A stretch of DNA of 64,000 nt from an uncultured Opitutaceae bacterium (lineage in GTDB: Bacteria; Verrucomicrobiota; Verrucomicrobiia; Opitutales; Opitutaceae), in the NCBI GenBank assembly GCA_937889545.1, contig CALAOT010000093.1, positions 1 to 64,000 of the forward strand, given 5' to 3'. The position numbers were made by a program, and so were the translations under genes. Below the pieces are notes generated by a model. It was not told the DNA's origin, ran no database searches, and saw nothing but the letters and a program-made list of their open reading frames with translations. The first letter of the stretch is position 1. Every line of letters begins with the position of its first letter. This document shows positions 2,035 to 35,565 of this stretch, piece after piece.

Positions 2035-2354
2035 TGACCGCAGGAGGCCTCGGGGCCGGCTGAAAAGGTGGAGGGAGAGCCTGGGGGCCCTACCAGGGCC
2101 GTTGGGGGATGCCGGAGGGGTTTCCCGCCCGGGAGGCGCGAATCAACAATAAAATTCACATTCGAGGCCTACAAACCTGTTGACGGCGGAAAACCGAGGC
2201 TCAATAGGTTGTGGCCGTCCGAGGCTTTGACCACATCCTGTTGTGGTCAACAACGCGTAAATAAGTTCCAGCAACTTTAGGTCGCCTAGGCTCATTTCGC
2301 GTTGGAAATAGCCCAGGTTAGCCCCAATTCGCACCCACTTTAACGCCAGATGCC
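2035..2354 (+). promoter_or_regulatory. nrdB leader with overlapping inverted repeats
   Basis: This 320-bp gap has no credible gene. It holds a GC-rich hairpin at 2086-2100 (GGCCCT/AGGGCC) that could help end dinB transcription but lacks a T-run. A perfect 9-bp inverted repeat with a 6-nt loop (TTGACCACA...TGTGGTCAA) lies at 2227-2250. An upstream segment at 2206-2214 (AGGTTGTGG) can pair with 2231-2239 (CCACATCCT) with one mismatch, so two alternative hairpins share one arm. This fits an operator array or an attenuator for the reductase genes. I did not find a convincing NrdR box. The half-sites resemble but do not match the DnaA box TTATCCACA. Confidence 0.45.
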
Positions 2355-3440
2355 ATGCAAAAGATTTTCCAGGTAGGAACCAAGACATTCGTACTCGATC
2401 AGGAGAAGGCCGAGGCCGCGTTTGCGGCGAAGCGCGTGATCAACGGGCGGCAGACGATGACGTTCAACCTGCTGCCGCTGAAATACCAGTGGGCCTACGA
2501 GCTGTACCGGAAGATGAAGGCCAACCATTGGGAGCCCGAGGACATCCCGATGGGAAAGGACATCGAGCAATGGCGGGACGCGAAGGCCGTCTCGGACATT
2601 GAGCGCTGGATCATCCGGATGGGAATCGGCTACTTCTCGGCTGCTGAGGGCATCGTCGGGGACAACATCCAGCACGTCGTTCGGGAGCTTGTCACGGCGC
2701 CCGAGCTCAAGCTTGTGCTCGGGCGCCATGCCCACGAGGAGAACATCCACGCCGATTCGCTGCTCTACATGATCGCCTCGCTCGGGATCAATCCGCACGA
2801 ATGCGAGGCCATGTTCGAGGACGTGGCAACGATCGTTAGGAAGAACGAGTTTGTAACCCGGATTTCACGGGAACTTCGCAGGGATCTGGACCTTACGCGG
2901 CCGGAGAACAAGAAGCTGCTCGCCTCGAACATATTTGTCTTCGGGCAGTGCATGGAAGGGACGCAGTTCTACGGGCTTTTTGGGATGGTCCTTTCCCTGT
3001 ACCGGCAGAACAAGTTCCCCGGGATAGGCCAGATGTTCCGCTACACGCTCCGGGACGAGTCGAACCACATCGAGGTCTTTCGCAACCTGTTCATGGACTT
3101 GGTTGAGGAGAACCGCGACATTTGGACGCCGGAATACAAGGAGGAGCTGCGCGGCCTGATGCGCGAGGCGATCACTCTTGAGAAGGATTTCATACGCGAT
3201 TGCCTGCCCGTCAACGCGGTGGGGCTGTGCCTCGAGGATTTCGAAACCTATATCGACTACATCGCCGATCGCCGCCTTGAAGGCTGCGGTCTGGCTCCGC
3301 TCTCGGGCGGCATCAAGAATCCACTGCCTTGGCTCGCCGAGATGATGGATATCACGAAGGAACAGAATTTTTTCGAGGGCAGGGTCACCGAATACCAAAA
3401 AGCGTCCTCATTGACTGTCGCCTCGGACGACGAGCTCTGA
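2355..3440 (+). CDS. nrdB: ribonucleotide reductase small subunit, class Ic-like
   Basis: This 361-residue R2 protein holds the dimetal cofactor that starts ribonucleotide reduction. Aligning by eye with the chlamydial R2c protein gives metal ligands E98 (FSAAEGIVGDN), E129 and H132 (EENIHADS), E201 (CMEGTQFYG), and E235 and H238 (RDESNHIE). The first ligand is Glu rather than the Asp of class Ia. The radical position (Tyr in class Ia, Phe in Chlamydia) is Leu, L136. Both features point to a Mn/Fe or other Tyr-radical-free enzyme, which is an inference. Near the C terminus a Tyr in VTEYQKASS can serve radical transfer to NrdA. It lies 152 bp upstream of nrdA in the same orientation. Confidence 0.93.
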   Translation: MQKIFQVGTKTFVLDQEKAEAAFAAKRVINGRQTMTFNLLPLKYQWAYELYRKMKANHWEPEDIPMGKDIEQWRDAKAVSDIERWIIRMGIGYFSAAEGIVGDNIQHVVRELVTAPELKLVLGRHAHEENIHADSLLYMIASLGINPHECEAMFEDVATIVRKNEFVTRISRELRRDLDLTRPENKKLLASNIFVFGQCMEGTQFYGLFGMVLSLYRQNKFPGIGQMFRYTLRDESNHIEVFRNLFMDLVEENRDIWTPEYKEELRGLMREAITLEKDFIRDCLPVNAVGLCLEDFETYIDYIADRRLEGCGLAPLSGGIKNPLPWLAEMMDITKEQNFFEGRVTEYQKASSLTVASDDEL

Positions 3441-3592
3441 CAACGGGCCGTTTGAACCGGGCATCCTAGCACCGACCGTCTTCCCCAATGCTTTAGAGGA
3501 CCCTTTGTCCGGCGCCGCAGGCGCGTGGGGGTCGTCAGCGCCCCGCTCTAGAAACTGCAATTGCAACTCTTTTATAAATTGGAACTTAGACC

Positions 3593-6500
3593 ATGAATAA
3601 CATCCCGCTGGCCCAGGATCTCGCGCTCAAGCGAACGGTCCACGCCCCGCTCGAGCAAAAACCCGTATACGCCTGGCGGGACGTCCTTGCGGCCGGGGAA
3701 ATCTCGCTGCCGCCGATCATCCTCCTGTGCCCGCACGGAGAGGAGCGCTTCGACATGACCGAGGTCGCCGACACGCTTGGAAAGGCGTTCACGAACGTCT
3801 GCATTTCCCAGGGAGAGATGGAGATTTTCACCGACAAGAACCGGGCTTGGGTTGCGCAGATCTGCCGCGAGCTCGGCGGCAACCTGACGGAGATGGCGCG
3901 CAAGCAGAACCCGCTCCGGCTTACGCTCAACGGCCTCTACGAGCTGATCGAAAAGACCCTGGTCGACAACAACGCCTACATGGTGGCAAAGAGCCTGCTG
4001 CTCAACCGCTCGCGGAAGCTCTCGGTCAGCCGCGAATCGGCCGCCCAGAGCACCATCCGCGTCATCCGGCGGAACAGCCAAGTGGTCCCGTGGAATGACA
4101 GCAAGGTCGAGATTGCGGTGCGCAAGACCTTCCTATCCCTCGCGCGCGATTCGGCGCCCGCAGTTGCAATCGCAAAGTCCGTATCGGATCGCGTCCAGGC
4201 TTCACACCAGGCCTTTGTGAGGATCGAGGAGGTCCAGGACATCGTGCAGGAGGAGCTGATGAAGGCCGGGCACTACAAGGTGGCCGAGGCTTATATTCTC
4301 TTCCGGGCCGAACGTGCCGCTGCGCGAGCCAGCTGTGCATCGGAAACAATCGACGCGTCGCTGGAACCGGCGGCATCCGGGCAGGAAACGCTGGTTGTCG
4401 TCAAGCAACCGAACGGGGAGACCGTGCTCTGGGATGGCGCCGATCTGCGCAAGAGGATCGAGTTTGCCCGGGTGGGACTCGATCTATGCCTCACAAGCGA
4501 GGAGATCGAACACGAACTCAGGCGGTCCATTTACGACCAGATCTCGCAGAAGGGCCTGGATTCCACGATCATCCTCAATTCAAAGACGCTGATCGAGCGG
4601 GATGCGGATTTTGCGAAATTCGCGGGACGGATCCAGCTCACCTACATCTACGAGGAGGTGCTTGGCTGGGACATCATGAGGGACGGCGTGGGGAAGCTTA
4701 AGGAATCGCACCTGAAGATCTTCAAGAAGTACATCGAGCACGGGATCGCCATAAATCGGCTGAATCCAAGGATGGCCGAATACGACCTTGCGCGGCTTGC
4801 GGAAGCGCTCGATCCGTCGTCGGACCTTGAGTTTGATTTCCTTGGAGTACAGACGCTTTATGACCGCTATCTGATCGTTGACAAGGTGTCGAAAACGTCG
4901 CGGCGGATCGAGACCCCGCAGTACTTCTGGATGCGCGTAGCAATGGGGCTGTTCCTCGACGAAAAGGGGGACCGCGAATCCAGGGCCGTTGCGCTCTATG
5001 ATCTCTACAAGACCCGGCGTTTCTGCTCGTCGACGCCAACGTTGTTTAACAGTGGCACCGTGCACAGTCAGCTCAGTTCGTGTTTTCTGTATCATGTTGA
5101 TGACTCGATAGAAGGGATATTCCAAAGGGGAATAGCTGAGAACGCTTACCTTTCAAAATGGGCCGGCGGCCTGGGCGGATCGTGGACGTCGGTGCGCGGT
5201 ACCGGAGCCTACATCGGCGGGACAAACGGCGAGTCGCAAGGCGTCATACCTTTCCTAAAGCTTCACAATGATCAACTGGTCGCTGTGAACCAGTGCTTTG
5301 CCCCGGAAACTATCGTGTACACGGCTGACGGCCCGAGAGCGATTCGTGACGTAATCGTGGGGAATCTAGTCTTGGGAAACAGCGGCACCTACCGCGAGGT
5401 GACCGAAAAACTCGCCTATGCTCAGCACGGTCCGATGGTGGCGGTGAAGATAAAGCATTCCATTGCCCCTGTTCGAGTCACAACCGGGCATCCATTCTTC
5501 GCGATTCGCGGTGTACCGATGGAACAGGCCTGTGCGCGCACCATGCAGTGGTTGGCAAAAGGCAACGTCAGGAGCCAATGGATCGATGCGGGCGAGCTAC
5601 GGCCCGGTGACTACGTGGCTCAAGTTATTCCCACCCAGGTTATTCCCGTCGACGGCTTTTCCGAAGACGATGCCCGCATGTACGGCATCTTATTGGGCGA
5701 CGGTCATCTTTCAAAGAACGGTCATCAATGGGGTGTCTCCGGCCATCCAGAACGTGACGCACATATGCAGTTCGTCCGGCAATATCTTGCCGAGCGGGGC
5801 GTTCATTTTTGGGAAACCGGTCGCGGCGAGACCTATCTGCAGATTCATTGGGCAAGCGGCCGCGGAGTTGTGCGCGATGGCACCACGGGGCGCATTGCGA
5901 GCGCGGGGCCCGCGACCATGCCGTTCGGATATGATGATCTTTACGATCAAGACGGGAAGAAGAGCCTATCGCGTCGTTTCACCCACCTACAACACGGACA
6001 TGCCCGTGCATTGATCCAGGGGCTCCTCGAGACAGACGGCGGTATTTCCCGTGGTACCGAGATATCCTTCACCAATACGTCGCAACCGCTCGTCGAGGGG
6101 CTTCGTTACCAGCTCCTGCGACTTGGAATCCCGACAGCTGGACAATTCCGCCGGCGCGACGTTTCGCACAAAGGCAAACGGTCTGACGGTTCTGCTGTCG
6201 AGTTTAAGGGAAACTGCGACTGCTATGATGTTCGCATCCCCGCAGTGATGGAGATTGCGGCGCTGGTCGGATGCAGACCGCTCACAAAGAGAAATTGGAT
6301 TTTCAACGATGGATGCATCTATTCACGGGTGAGGGATGTCGTAAGTATAGAGCCCGATCCGTTTGTTTTTGATCTTAAGGTGGAGGGCGACGAAACCTAC
6401 ATGACCAACGCCGCCTTGGTTCACAACGGAGGCAAACGCAAGGGATCCGGCTGCGCCTACCTCGAGAGCTGGCACAACGACATCTTTGAGTTTCTCGAGC

Positions 6501-30454: not shown

Positions 30455-31213
30455 TTGACCTTTCACGCATGGCAATGGTGCCTGGCGGCGCTTGGGGCGC
30501 TCCTCGTGGGCGTGTCGAAGACGGGCGTCACGGGGTTGAGCCTGATCTTCGTGTCGATCTTCGCGGCGATCATGCCCGCCAGGCGCTCGACGGGCCTTGT
30601 CCTGCCGCTCCTCATGCTCGGGGACATCGTAGCGGTCCTCTCGTATCGCAGCCACGCCCAATGGCGGCATGTCTGGCGGCTGCTTCCGTGGGCCGGGGCG
30701 GGGGTCGTGATCGGGTATTTCGCATTGGGACGCATGAACGAACCCCAGGCGCGCTTCGCCATCGGGTCGATTGTGGTCGGCCTTGCCGTCCTTTACATCG
30801 TCCGGCGCATGCGGCCGGGAGGCGACCAGGAGGAGCACGCGCCATGGTTCGCGCCGGTGATCGGGATCCTGGCGGGGTTCACGACCCTCGTGGCCAACGC
30901 GGCGGGCCCCCTTACGGTGATCTACATGCTCGCGATGCGGTTGCCCAAGATGAAATACATGGGCACCACGGCCGTCTTCTTCCTGCTCCTCAACCTGTTC
31001 AAGCTGCCTTTCATGGTCGGACTTGGCCTGATCACGCGCCAAAGCCTCGCGGTGAGCATCGTGCTGGCCCCCGCTGTGCTCGCCGGGACGTGGCTGGGGA
31101 AGTGGCTCCTCGGCTGGATCAACCAGCGCGCCTTCGAGGCCATCATTCTTGCGCTCGCGCTCTTGGCGGGGGCGAGTGATGTTTATCTGACAGCACGATC
31201 ATGGCTAAGATGA
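30455..31213 (+). CDS. TauE/SafE-family permease
   Basis: 252 residues and seven or eight hydrophobic helices. The family's repeated motif is visible as GVSKTGVTGLSLIFVSIFA and again as GFTTLVANAAGPLTVIYM. Members export or import sulfonates, sulfite or related anions. The substrate is unknown here. The start appears to be TTG at 30455 with a G-run 7 bp upstream. No ATG or GTG is usable in this frame before the first helix. Its end overlaps the ruvC start by 13 bp. Confidence 0.87.
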   Translation: MTFHAWQWCLAALGALLVGVSKTGVTGLSLIFVSIFAAIMPARRSTGLVLPLLMLGDIVAVLSYRSHAQWRHVWRLLPWAGAGVVIGYFALGRMNEPQARFAIGSIVVGLAVLYIVRRMRPGGDQEEHAPWFAPVIGILAGFTTLVANAAGPLTVIYMLAMRLPKMKYMGTTAVFFLLLNLFKLPFMVGLGLITRQSLAVSIVLAPAVLAGTWLGKWLLGWINQRAFEAIILALALLAGASDVYLTARSWLR

Positions 31214-31806
31214 GCTCAAGGCAGATGTGGACCGCCAAGCTGACTGGCAAGCCGGGCGCCGGCCGGCCCGCCGCGACGCCGCGCAGGGCCGTTCCTGACG
31301 GGGAGCTCTATCAAAAAAGGGCCTTTTGCGGGCTCGTCCTCGGCATCGATCCCTCGCTCCGGGGGACCGGGCTCGCCCTCGTTGATTTTCAGGCGAACCG
31401 GATGCCGGTCCTCCTGCGGTGCAGGACCGTCCGCGTTCCCGCCGGCCGGACCTTGGCGGTCGCCCTTGCCGAGATCCACCGCGCCGTCGCCGAGTTCATC
31501 GCAAGCGGGGCCGGCGTGCGGCACGTGGCCCTCGAGCGGACGATCTATGTGCAGAACTTCCAGACGGCGCAGATCCTTGGCGCGGCCCGCGGCGCCGCCA
31601 TCGCGGCAGCCGCCCTCGAGGGGCTGCCGGTCTTCGAGTACCCGCCGCTCCGCGTGAAGCAGGCTGTCGCCGGAACGGGGAGGGCGAGCAAGGAGCAGCT
31701 GGCGCGCTCGGTGATGGCCCTCCTCGGGCACGGAAAGGCGCTTGCGTTCGACGAGGCGGACGCGGCCGGTGTCGCGCTTTGCCACGCCTTCACCTGGCAG
31801 CCGTGA
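31201..31806 (+). CDS. ruvC: Holliday junction resolvase RuvC
   Basis: 201 residues. RuvC cuts four-way junctions made in recombination, with RuvAB. The RNase H-like acidic site is Asp50 (GIDPSLRGTG), Glu112 (ALERTIYVQN), Asp184 and Asp187 (FDEADAAGVALCHA). Basic N-terminal residues before Asp50 form an extension of about 40 residues not seen in typical 160-180-residue RuvC. A later start (for example the Met at residue 9) is possible. It overlaps the permease gene by 13 bp, and ruvAB are not nearby. Confidence 0.92.
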   Translation: MAKMSSRQMWTAKLTGKPGAGRPAATPRRAVPDGELYQKRAFCGLVLGIDPSLRGTGLALVDFQANRMPVLLRCRTVRVPAGRTLAVALAEIHRAVAEFIASGAGVRHVALERTIYVQNFQTAQILGAARGAAIAAAALEGLPVFEYPPLRVKQAVAGTGRASKEQLARSVMALLGHGKALAFDEADAAGVALCHAFTWQP

Positions 31807-31819
31807 GCGCCGTTTCCCG

Positions 31820-34507
31820 TCAGCCTAGGACCGCCTTGAGCACCTTGCCCAGGTCGGCGACCCGGTAGGGCTTCGTCAGGTAGCCGCAGAAGCCCATGTC
31901 GAGGTATTGCCGGGCCATGTCCTCGTTGTCGTAGCCAGTCGACACGATTGCGCGCACCTCGGAATCGAGCTCGCGCAGGACCCTGAACGTTTCCTCGCCG
32001 CCCAGGCCGCCCACCACCGTCAGGTCCATGATAACGGCGTCGTACGGGCGGCCGATGTTGAGGTAGCGCTTGTAGAAGGCGATCGCGTCCTCGCCGTTCT
32101 TCGCGATGTCGAACTTGTAGTCGAGGCTCTGCAGCATCGCGGCCGTCAGGGCGCAGATGTGATCGTCATCGTCCATGAAGAGCACCCGCCCGGTGCAGAA
32201 TCGCTGCGACGGGGCGGGGCGGGCCTGCACGTCGACGGGCTGGTCGGCTATCGGAAGGAAGACGCTGAACACGGTCCCGACACCAACGGTTGACTGCACG
32301 CCTATCTCGCCGCCGAACTTCCGGACAATGCCCATCGCGGTCGACAGGCCGAGGCCCGTTCCGTGCTTCTTGGTCGTGAAGAATGGGTCCCAGATCCTTT
32401 CGAGATTCTCCTGGCTGATCCCGCTCCCGTTGTCGCGCACCTCGAACTCCACGTATTCGCCCGGAGCCAGGGACGCGATCTGGCCTTCGACAAAATGGAC
32501 GTCCGCAGCCCTCAGCTGCAGGCGCGCGCTGTGGGGCGCGGGTGGCATCGCCTGCAGGGAGTTGAGAATGAGGTTCTGGAAAACCTGCACGATCTGGGCG
32601 CGGTCCACCTTCACGGCCCCGGTCCCCGCCGGCGCCTGCACGGTGATCTCGGCCGTGGAGCCCGCCGAGGCCATCTTCACGGCCTCCTCGAGAATCTCCT
32701 TCGAATCGCAGACCGTGACGGCGCCCGTCCCGCCCCTCGCGAACGTGAGGAGCTGCTTCGTGAGGTTCTTTGCGGTGAGGCACGCCTCCTCGGATTCGGC
32801 GAGCCCCGAAGGGTCGCGGCTATCCTTTGCGAGCGACAGCCCTCCGAGTATCTTGGTCAGCAGGTCGTTGAAATCACTCGCGAACCCGGCGGCCAGCTGC
32901 GCGAGCGACGCGTATCGGTTCGCCCGTATCAGCTCTTCCGGCGTCAGACCCATCTCGTCGGGGTTGCGGAACACGATCACGACACCGAGGAGACTCGAGT
33001 CCGGGCCGTACGAGGCCCGCGCCGTCCAAATGACGGGCACCGGCTCGCCGCCCACGACCGTGACCGCCTGGTCGGTGATGAGCGGAAGCGGTCCGCTGGC
33101 GGAGAGCGCCCGATCAGCGGCATTGTCGCCAGGCCTGCCGCTCTGGCGGTCCACAAGGGAGAACACTTGGTCGAGGGGCCGGCCTGCAAATCCGTCGACC
33201 GGTATCCGCAGCAGGCGCGAGGCCGTCGCGTTTCCAAAGAGCACGTGCCCGCCCGAGTCGGTCGCGAGCACGCCCTCCGACAGGGTGGCGAGGACCTCCT
33301 CGATGATGCCGTTGGAAGGAGCCGCCGGCGCCACCTCGGGGAGTGCCGGCGCAGGGGACGCCGCCGCGGCCCCGACTTGCTGCCGTTCAGGAGCCAGGCA
33401 GGCGAAACCGACAACGCGGGCCAGCGCGCGCTTCCTGGTAAGCGTGCGATTGAGGCTGAGGAGGGCGGGAAGAGACCGGCCATCCTTGGTGCGAAGGCGG
33501 ACCTCCTGGGAAAACGACGACTGGCCGGGCTCATGGCTCAGGAGCCACGCTTCGATTCCGCCGGGGAAAGCCTCGGGCGCAAGCGCCTCGGCCAGCGCGG
33601 CCACGCCGTTCTCGGGCGCGGGCGCTCCTCCGACCAGCCGCAGCCACGCATCGGAGAACCACGATGTCTTGCCTATGATATCCAGCTCGAACGCGGCCAG
33701 CGACCCGTCGTCCGACAGGGCGCGCAGGCGGGCATCACTCGCCAGGGCGGACTCCTCCAGCTCCTTGCGCTCCGTAGCGTCGATGTGGATTCCGATGACG
33801 CGCTCCAGGTCCCCCCACGGGCTCACCATCTGGAGGCCGGCGCACTGGATCCACGCCCAGTGCCCGAGCTTGTGCTTCATCCGGAACTCGACCCCGAACG
33901 GGCGTGCGCCGACCTTGAACTTCCGGCCGGCCTTGTCGGGCGCAGCCGCCGTGTCCTCGGGGTGGAGCAGGTTAAGCCATGCCTCGTAGGTGTCCGCAAG
34001 CTCGGCATCGGCGTATCCGAGCATCCTCTTCCAGGCTGGGGAGTAGACGGCCCGGCGGGCCTTCAGGTTCAAATCGAAGAAGCCGACATCGCCCTTCTCG
34101 GCGAAGAGCTGCAGGGCCTCGGCCTGGTCGTCCGGAAATGCTGGGGACGCCGCGCCGGGCTTGAAGGGCGACTCGATCACCACGATGTACGCGCCTGCTG
34201 CGCCGATCGCCTTCTCCGCCCGCACGGTCATCGGCCGCGGCGCGCCTTCCTTGGGCTGGATGGATAGCACGGCGCTCTTGTCGAGCGTGGCCGCAAGCAG
34301 GACGTCCCACTGGGCCTCCACCATCCTGGGTTCGTCAGAGACGATATCTAGCTCAAAGAGTCCCGGGAAGGATTCGCCCACAAGCTCCCCAACGCCCGTC
34401 TGCCACAGCGTCTTCGCCTCCTGGTTTGCGGCGATGACCTTCCCGGAATCATCCAAGACCAGCACGGCAATCTGGGGTTCATTCGTCCCGGGTTTTACTG
34501 TGGTCAC
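31820..34507 (-). CDS. PAS-rich hybrid sensor histidine kinase lacking the phospho-His
   Basis: 895 residues with no transmembrane helix, so probably cytoplasmic. Four PAS-like domains lie at about 10-110, 130-250, 258-372 and 398-515. A dimerisation helix follows at 530-590. The ATPase domain has the N box (FQNLILNSLQA), G1 (DNGSGIS), FFTTKKHGTGLGLS and GVGTVFSVFLP. A receiver domain follows, with acidic pocket MDDDDH, Asp828 (VIMDLT) and Lys879 (YLTKPY). The residue that should be phosphorylated (AHDFNN in this group) is Ser544 in GFASDFNDLL, read directly as AGT. The protein may signal through the receiver, or act with another kinase. No response regulator is adjacent. Confidence 0.9.
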   Translation of the reverse strand: MTTVKPGTNEPQIAVLVLDDSGKVIAANQEAKTLWQTGVGELVGESFPGLFELDIVSDEPRMVEAQWDVLLAATLDKSAVLSIQPKEGAPRPMTVRAEKAIGAAGAYIVVIESPFKPGAASPAFPDDQAEALQLFAEKGDVGFFDLNLKARRAVYSPAWKRMLGYADAELADTYEAWLNLLHPEDTAAAPDKAGRKFKVGARPFGVEFRMKHKLGHWAWIQCAGLQMVSPWGDLERVIGIHIDATERKELEESALASDARLRALSDDGSLAAFELDIIGKTSWFSDAWLRLVGGAPAPENGVAALAEALAPEAFPGGIEAWLLSHEPGQSSFSQEVRLRTKDGRSLPALLSLNRTLTRKRALARVVGFACLAPERQQVGAAAASPAPALPEVAPAAPSNGIIEEVLATLSEGVLATDSGGHVLFGNATASRLLRIPVDGFAGRPLDQVFSLVDRQSGRPGDNAADRALSASGPLPLITDQAVTVVGGEPVPVIWTARASYGPDSSLLGVVIVFRNPDEMGLTPEELIRANRYASLAQLAAGFASDFNDLLTKILGGLSLAKDSRDPSGLAESEEACLTAKNLTKQLLTFARGGTGAVTVCDSKEILEEAVKMASAGSTAEITVQAPAGTGAVKVDRAQIVQVFQNLILNSLQAMPPAPHSARLQLRAADVHFVEGQIASLAPGEYVEFEVRDNGSGISQENLERIWDPFFTTKKHGTGLGLSTAMGIVRKFGGEIGVQSTVGVGTVFSVFLPIADQPVDVQARPAPSQRFCTGRVLFMDDDDHICALTAAMLQSLDYKFDIAKNGEDAIAFYKRYLNIGRPYDAVIMDLTVVGGLGGEETFRVLRELDSEVRAIVSTGYDNEDMARQYLDMGFCGYLTKPYRVADLGKVLKAVLG

Positions 34508-34530: not shown

Positions 34531-35565
34531 TCAGAGCGCGCCGCTATTCAGCCACTTTTGCACACGGTTTGCGAGGAATTCGATATAGGCAGGATGGTCA
34601 TTTGGACAAAGTATCTTCTCAAAGTGTTCTCCTCCAGCTCCTAGAAACGTTTCACGGCCGACTATGGAAATTTCTTCAAGCGTTTCAAGGCAATCGGCGA
34701 CAAAACTGGGGCAAATTACCAGCAACCGCCGCACTCCCGCCTTAGCAAGCCGGACGAATTCCAAGTCCGTGAAGGGCTCAAGCCAGGGCTCTCCCGCGAG
34801 TCGCGACTGGAACGACATCGAGTATCGAGCGGGATCGAGGCCGGCCCGGCGGGCAAAGTCCGCTGTCATGCGCACGCACTGAGCTCGGTAACACGTGGCA
34901 TGGGCGGGCGAGCAGGTCGCGCAGCAATCGGCCACCACCATGCAATGCGCATGAGATGAATCCGCCTTGCGCAGATGGCGCACAGGTATGCCATGGAAGC
35001 TGAACAGGAGGTGGTCGTGCGGCACCTCCAGAAAGGGCGAGGCGACCGTGTGGAGGAGCTCGATGTAATCCGGGTCGCCGAAGAATGGCTGGACACAGCT
35101 GATTCGCATTCCGGGCGCCTGCCTTGCGGCTTCCTCATAGACCCGCACAACCACCGTTTCCCAGGACGACATCGCGTAGTGGGGGTATTGGGGGACGAGC
35201 AGGACGTCGTCGCAGCCTGCGGCCACCAGCGTGGCCACCCCGGACGCAATGGAGGGATTGCCATACCTCATTGCGGCGTGGACCGCCACGCCGGGGTCGA
35301 GCGACGCCGCGAGATCGCGGCGGACGCGCTCCGAGGTCACGACAAGCGGCGAACCCTCGGGCGTCCAGATCCTCGAGTATGCGTGGGCCGTGCGCTTGGG
35401 CCGCGTGGGCAGGATGATCGCCTCGAGGAGGAGCCACCGGAGCGGCGCCGGCAGGTCGAGCACCCGCCCGTCGCCCAGGAACTCGCGCAGGAAGCGCCGC
35501 ACATCGGGAACGGACGTGGAATCCGGGGACCCGAGGTTGGCAATGAGGACGGCGCGCTTCGGCAT
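34531..35565 (-). CDS. hemH: ferrochelatase, probable [2Fe-2S] internal-insert class
   Basis: 344 residues. It inserts Fe(II) into protoporphyrin IX, the last step of heme synthesis. The catalytic His is His191 in FSFHGIPVRH. A second conserved block is VICPSFVADCLETLEE with the catalytic Glu. Just after the first motif is a Cys-rich stretch of about 25 residues with Cys at 208, 214, 215, 218, 225 and 230 (ADCCATCSPAHATCYRAQC). A class of bacterial ferrochelatases described from Bdellovibrio carries a [2Fe-2S] cluster in such an internal segment, and this one fits. It is divergent from gpmI, and hemB is about 8 kb away. Confidence 0.94.
   Translation of the reverse strand: MPKRAVLIANLGSPDSTSVPDVRRFLREFLGDGRVLDLPAPLRWLLLEAIILPTRPKRTAHAYSRIWTPEGSPLVVTSERVRRDLAASLDPGVAVHAAMRYGNPSIASGVATLVAAGCDDVLLVPQYPHYAMSSWETVVVRVYEEAARQAPGMRISCVQPFFGDPDYIELLHTVASPFLEVPHDHLLFSFHGIPVRHLRKADSSHAHCMVVADCCATCSPAHATCYRAQCVRMTADFARRAGLDPARYSMSFQSRLAGEPWLEPFTDLEFVRLAKAGVRRLLVICPSFVADCLETLEEISIVGRETFLGAGGEHFEKILCPNDHPAYIEFLANRVQKWLNSGAL

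Follow-up and report, generated by a model that had tools for sequence, protein, structure and literature searches.

DivL of Caulobacter, an alphaproteobacterium, joins PAS domains to a DHp-CA core with a residue other than His at the phospho-site and has no receiver domain, and NifL, a PAS-DHp-CA protein that acts without phosphotransfer, also has no receiver and is encoded adjacent to its partner NifA. CckA-type hybrid kinases are bifunctional, keep the His, and carry an HDFNNLL-type DHp domain, a CA domain and a receiver with an FxSGY-like motif. The protein described here shares its PAS-DHp-CA layout with DivL and NifL, its non-His phospho-site with DivL, and its DHp type, CA domain and receiver motif with CckA. 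It differs from NifL, which lacks a receiver and has its partner encoded alongside, from CckA in the missing His and in an Asp at position H+4, and from DivL, a single conserved lineage, in having a fused receiver and in belonging to a family in which the His was lost repeatedly. Two further systems are comparable. In plants, the ETR2-type ethylene receptors of subfamily II are naturally occurring hybrid kinases whose kinase core has degenerated and whose receiver has its Asp (PMC4579252), and RetS blocks GacS independently of the RetS phosphorelay residues (excerpt of PMC4866733). DivL homologs carry a non-His residue at the site throughout, namely Tyr, or Ala in Magnetospirillum, according to the relevant part of PMC4211667. 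DivL, the ethylene receptors and the contact mechanism of RetS-GacS show that a His-less type can work; none of them is the present family, which is new within a known kind of pseudokinase. Our search of the literature on histidine kinases in Opitutaceae, or with ferrochelatase/hemH in Verrucomicrobia, returned nothing on this kinase family.

The window, by which we mean the whole stretch of 64,000 nucleotides analysed (an uncultured Opitutaceae bacterium, assembly GCA_937889545.1, contig CALAOT010000093.1, positions 1 to 64,000), carries at 31820..34507 on the minus strand the gene for a His-less hybrid sensor kinase of 895 aa, laid out as four PAS domains, DHp, CA and receiver (REC) according to the open reading frame, Pfam and an AF2 model. 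The frame starts with GTG and is fully open, and all parts given below lie on the same strand. PAS 1 (residues 13-112; 34172..34471), PAS 2 (residues 128-243; 33779..34126) and PAS 4 (residues 399-514; 32966..33313) were delimited from Pfam matches (PAS_9, PAS_3 and PAS_4, respectively) and AF2 secondary structure, and a PAS 3-like domain (residues 271-371; 33395..33697) from AF2 secondary structure only. A DHp helical hairpin follows (residues 523-590; 32738..32941; AF2 and a scan for His), then a HATPase_c/CA domain with intact ATP-binding residues (residues 635-753; 32249..32605; PF02518, E 1.6e-21) and the receiver (residues 775-889; 31841..32185; Pfam, E 1.3e-14). Pfam matched the PAS, HATPase_c and receiver domains of the protein and gave no match to HisKA. 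The AF2 model (mean pLDDT 78.5), read by its secondary structure, contains four PAS-like folds, followed by the DHp hairpin and by the folds of a CA domain and a receiver; given a pTM of 0.32, it was used for domain folds and not for domain arrangement. A Foldseek search with it returned kinases and phytochromes at low whole-length TM-scores, adding little beyond the domain folds.

Ser544 (codon AGT; 32876..32878) lies in the middle of DHp helix 1 (residues 523-562 of the model) and aligns both with the phospho-His of the orthologs and with the His of AHDFNNLL in the CckA structure 5idj, the best solved-structure match by sequence. A preliminary description of the gene had read this residue as a replacement of the phospho-accepting His by a codon not one step from CAC or CAT. 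The alignments agree on both counts: AGT stands two steps from CAY, and the sister species has the intermediate AAT, which is one step away from CAT and from AGT alike. The same description had called the ATPase motifs, Asp828 and Lys879 intact, as alignment confirms, and had allowed that an alignment might place another His of the helix at the phospho-site; residues 520-629 contain none, and misalignment with a His nearby is thus rejected. Sequencing or assembly error is likewise rejected, as the His is missing from the sister's protein, in a separate MAG, as well, and further DHp positions nearby have changed. Among these is position H+4, where Asn is normally found and which is the usual phosphatase position; the window protein has Asp548 (32864..32866), a change absent from the preliminary description. 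At the ATP site, Asn649, Asp692 and Gly718 are present, as are, in the receiver, the acidic pair Asp779/780, the phospho-acceptor Asp828 (32024..32026), the S/T residue Thr857 and Lys879 (31871..31873). Thr857 belongs to VSTGY (residues 855-859; 31931..31945). This sequence nearly matches the FxSGY/FATGUY motif located where beta 4 ends, Val standing in for Phe and Thr for Ser; according to section 11 of PMC9981736, the motif goes with intermediary receivers of the CckA class. The protein is therefore built as a hybrid histidine kinase with a complete set of receiver residues and, by near match, a CckA-type intermediary receiver; it has the HATPase_c domain with N, D and G of an active HisKA-type kinase and lacks the His in DHp helix 1, and in place of the Tyr and missing receiver that define DivL it has Ser and a fused receiver.

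The preliminary description had also proposed searching relatives for the same change, and this search was fruitful. At E <= 1e-95, orthologs were matched in 134 of 200 Opitutaceae genomes, leaving 66 with no match at that cut-off, and the phospho-site was read in 135 proteins (the 134 and two more congeners, minus one N-terminal fragment): 124 have His, five Ala, two Ser, two Arg, one Asn and one Gln. The 11 non-His orthologs, all of which keep the N, D and G residues checked at the ATP site, form three separate clades. One comprises the window protein (Ser, AGT) and that of a sister species of the same genus (Asn, AAT); another, three short forms without PAS domains, also from the window's genus (Arg, CGG, in two and Gln, CAG, in the third); and the last, every one of the six members of a second genus in which the site could be read (five Ala, GCC, and one Ser, TCC). 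A tree of 126 complete cores requires three changes of the non-His label, all forced by well-supported branches, while the short-form branches are long and their exact place in the kinase tree is unsure. In a gpmI tree, a clade supported at 100/99-100 unites the window and its sister with five congeners that have the His; the species with short forms fall outside it. The window protein, its sister and the proteins of the second genus all keep the receiver quintet and the FxSGY-like motif. In the short forms, 13-18 of the conserved DHp positions are altered and the GY of the receiver motif is lost (Gly is kept in one of the three), with Arg for the receiver Lys in one and Gly for the S/T residue in two.

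Within the window's genus, the gene is present in 12 of 13 genomes, five of which lack the His, and the thirteenth has hemH-ruvC without the kinase gene. Among paralogs of the HDFNN type in this genus, the first 34 non-ortholog matches listed all keep the His (5/12 against 0/34; Fisher p = 0.0006, shared ancestry ignored). The loss is a property of the hemH-linked ortholog and not of the genus, and with the sister MAG also His-less and the paralogs intact, it is not a matter of chance or an assembly slip. We also considered a His-bearing replacement copy elsewhere in the window's genome, which is 92% complete, and rejected it, as nothing above 36% identity was found. The second genus has a readable site in six of ten genomes; in three others (L239, L240, L241) hemH adjoins ruvC directly with the kinase cleanly absent, and in the remaining one a contig end interrupts the locus. 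Of the orthologs from this genus, the one with Ser (L019, G019) has one in-frame TAG in the PAS region, between open frames 1390-2271 and 2275-4218, which is either a recent pseudogene or a sequencing error.

The kinase gene sits between hemH (ferrochelatase; 34531..35565, minus strand), 23 bp upstream, and the convergent downstream ruvC (31201..31806, plus strand). Across Opitutaceae, the gene immediately upstream, and in the same orientation, is hemH at all 47 loci where both genes were located (53 loci were examined, six without hemH in reach, and some genomes were counted twice), and no other conserved neighbour was found at the ortholog loci. A heme- or respiration-linked role of the kinase is possible. 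Two variants of the arrangement were seen: a congener without the kinase (L243 and L244, G011) has hemH twice, with one copy lying inside an open frame of 832 aa, and in a short-form congener (L231, G009) hemH is on another contig while gpmI, the shortened kinase and ruvC stay together.

Selection was assessed by likelihood at the codon level, with a model written for this analysis that has distinct omega classes. Over DHp-CA-REC, omega is 0.030 on the window and sister branches and 0.026 in the background, and omega = 1 costs 191.7 lnL. By domain, the window tip compares with the rest at 0.097 against 0.025 for DHp (2dlnL 4.56, nominal p about 0.03, uncorrected), at 0.028 against 0.027 for CA, and at 0.006 against 0.019 for REC, the slowest domain in this lineage, although such single-tip tests have little power and forcing omega = 1 for REC alone costs just 1.1 lnL. 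Of the positions at least 95% conserved among 115 His-bearing rows, the window protein has changed three out of 26 in DHp (H544S, N548D and T552K), one out of 34 in CA and one out of 37 in REC. In the window lineage, constraint on CA and REC thus equals that in relatives with the His, and DHp alone is faster, nominally. Inside the second-genus clade, omega is 0.064 against 0.025 in neighbours (omega = 1 costs 549 lnL), with REC less constrained than in His-bearing neighbours (0.041 against 0.009); omega on the stem of this clade was unstable (4.87 for the whole core) and left out of use. With its open frame and low omega, the window gene is not a pseudogene. As an ortholog of active-type kinases that has lost the site while CA and REC stay constrained, its product is, judged by sequence, a maintained pseudo-histidine kinase.

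We propose that this protein descends from an ordinary hybrid kinase and that its receiver most likely serves as a drain by reverse relay, gated by PAS domains and nucleotide, a reading to which we give a probability of roughly 0.4. The phospho-His was probably replaced first by Asn and then by Ser, the H+4 Asn reads as Asp in the window protein, and a protein so altered would be unable to autophosphorylate on its DHp domain. Its receiver may still exchange phosphate with an HPt domain, or with the DHp domain of another kinase, the most likely course being from HPt~P to Asp828 and on to Pi, and PAS signals together with the nucleotide state of CA would set how available the receiver is. Receivers of hybrid kinases can take phosphate away from HPt even when the kinase His is missing. 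In the part of PMC3310172 concerned with these mutants, LuxU~P is still dephosphorylated by CqsS H194Q and by the ATP-site mutant CqsS Cat- but not by D618N, and in ArcB, on the evidence of an extract from PMC11620690, the reverse relay ends at the protein's own receiver Asp. The FxSGY-like motif, set beside these precedents, fits a drain. HPt-domain proteins occur in 13 of 13 genomes of the window's genus; being present everywhere, they do not discriminate. Several results weigh against a drain. No partner HPt or kinase was identified among the neighbours, the HPt census or the genome's paralogs; the second-genus REC is less constrained than that of its neighbours, and the single-tip REC test is weak; and outright deletion in some species of both genera means that the kinase is dispensable there. 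A pure receiver drain, moreover, needs no ATP binding, as CqsS Cat- illustrates. Since CA is no less constrained than in relatives, it must have some further function, which leaves a gated drain or a DivL-like scaffold as the leading candidates. In the short clade, where the receiver motif is lost too, a drain is unlikely and such a scaffold more likely.

As an allosteric scaffold of the DivL/NifL kind, which for the window protein we hold possible though doubtful, DHp-CA would bind nucleotide and a partner kinase or regulator and act by contact without phosphotransfer, the receiver being a docking or autoregulatory module. The undiminished constraint on CA, the ATP-site residues of all 11 His-less orthologs, and a short clade that kept CA while losing the receiver motif speak for it, whereas DivL has no receiver, the window receiver has all its phospho-residues, and no domain of the lineage evolves more slowly than REC. 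DivL is a proven case of this mode of action, though a weak ATP binder (both from portions of PMC4211667), and the RetS-GacS block offers a further precedent (PMC4866733, in extract). Constraint on both CA and REC would also suit a mixed dimer, in which the window CA phosphorylates the His of a related kinase and the window receiver takes the phosphate, much as the pseudokinase ChrS pairs with its paralogue HrrS (abstract of PMC9491836); we consider this improbable, as the window's genome has no close paralog (next best 36% identity) and DHp, the dimer interface, changes fastest. The preliminary description had supposed that ATP may be bound without autophosphorylation, or the receiver controlled through a partner kinase or phosphatase. 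That autophosphorylation was lost while the residues of the ATP site and the receiver stayed in place is supported by the alignment, three separate losses and purifying selection; no partner emerged, and the search for a conserved one ended at hemH.

Similarly improbable is that the loss marks relaxed constraint ahead of deletion. The clean hemH/ruvC deletions (three of ten second-genus genomes and one of 13 in the window's genus), the G019 ortholog with its in-frame TAG and the short forms without PAS domains would be expected of a gene in decay; omega remains far below 1 after the loss, however, the window frame is open with CA and REC constrained as in relatives, and, as 66 of 200 family genomes gave no match at the E threshold applied, the two genera are not alone in lacking the gene. 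That Ser544 or another residue is itself the acceptor of a Ser-type autokinase is very improbable: Ser can carry phosphate and recurs once in the second genus, but with Ala, Asn, Arg or Gln in relatives, a hydroxyl group is not conserved at this position.

Taken a step further, and more tentatively than the gated drain itself, one bacterial family may have seen at least three conversions of a hemH-paired hybrid kinase to a device that binds nucleotide and lacks the His. Two of the three lineages would keep a relay-competent receiver and work as dedicated phosphate drains gated by signals, nature's equivalent of the H-to-Q hybrid kinases made in the laboratory, and the Asn-bearing sister would stand at the first step. 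The route from active histidine kinase to pseudokinase has so far been inferred mostly from old, fixed cases such as DivL. Here, close relatives hold in one orthologous gene the ancestral His, a first step to Asn, a remodelled site (Ser, and Asp at H+4), two more losses that arose independently, and clean deletions, which makes the order of events, and what selection keeps (the ATP site and the receiver), directly testable. Because the ATP-binding and receiver domains are under selection and the same loss occurred three separate times, the protein has probably become a non-kinase switch or a phosphate drain.
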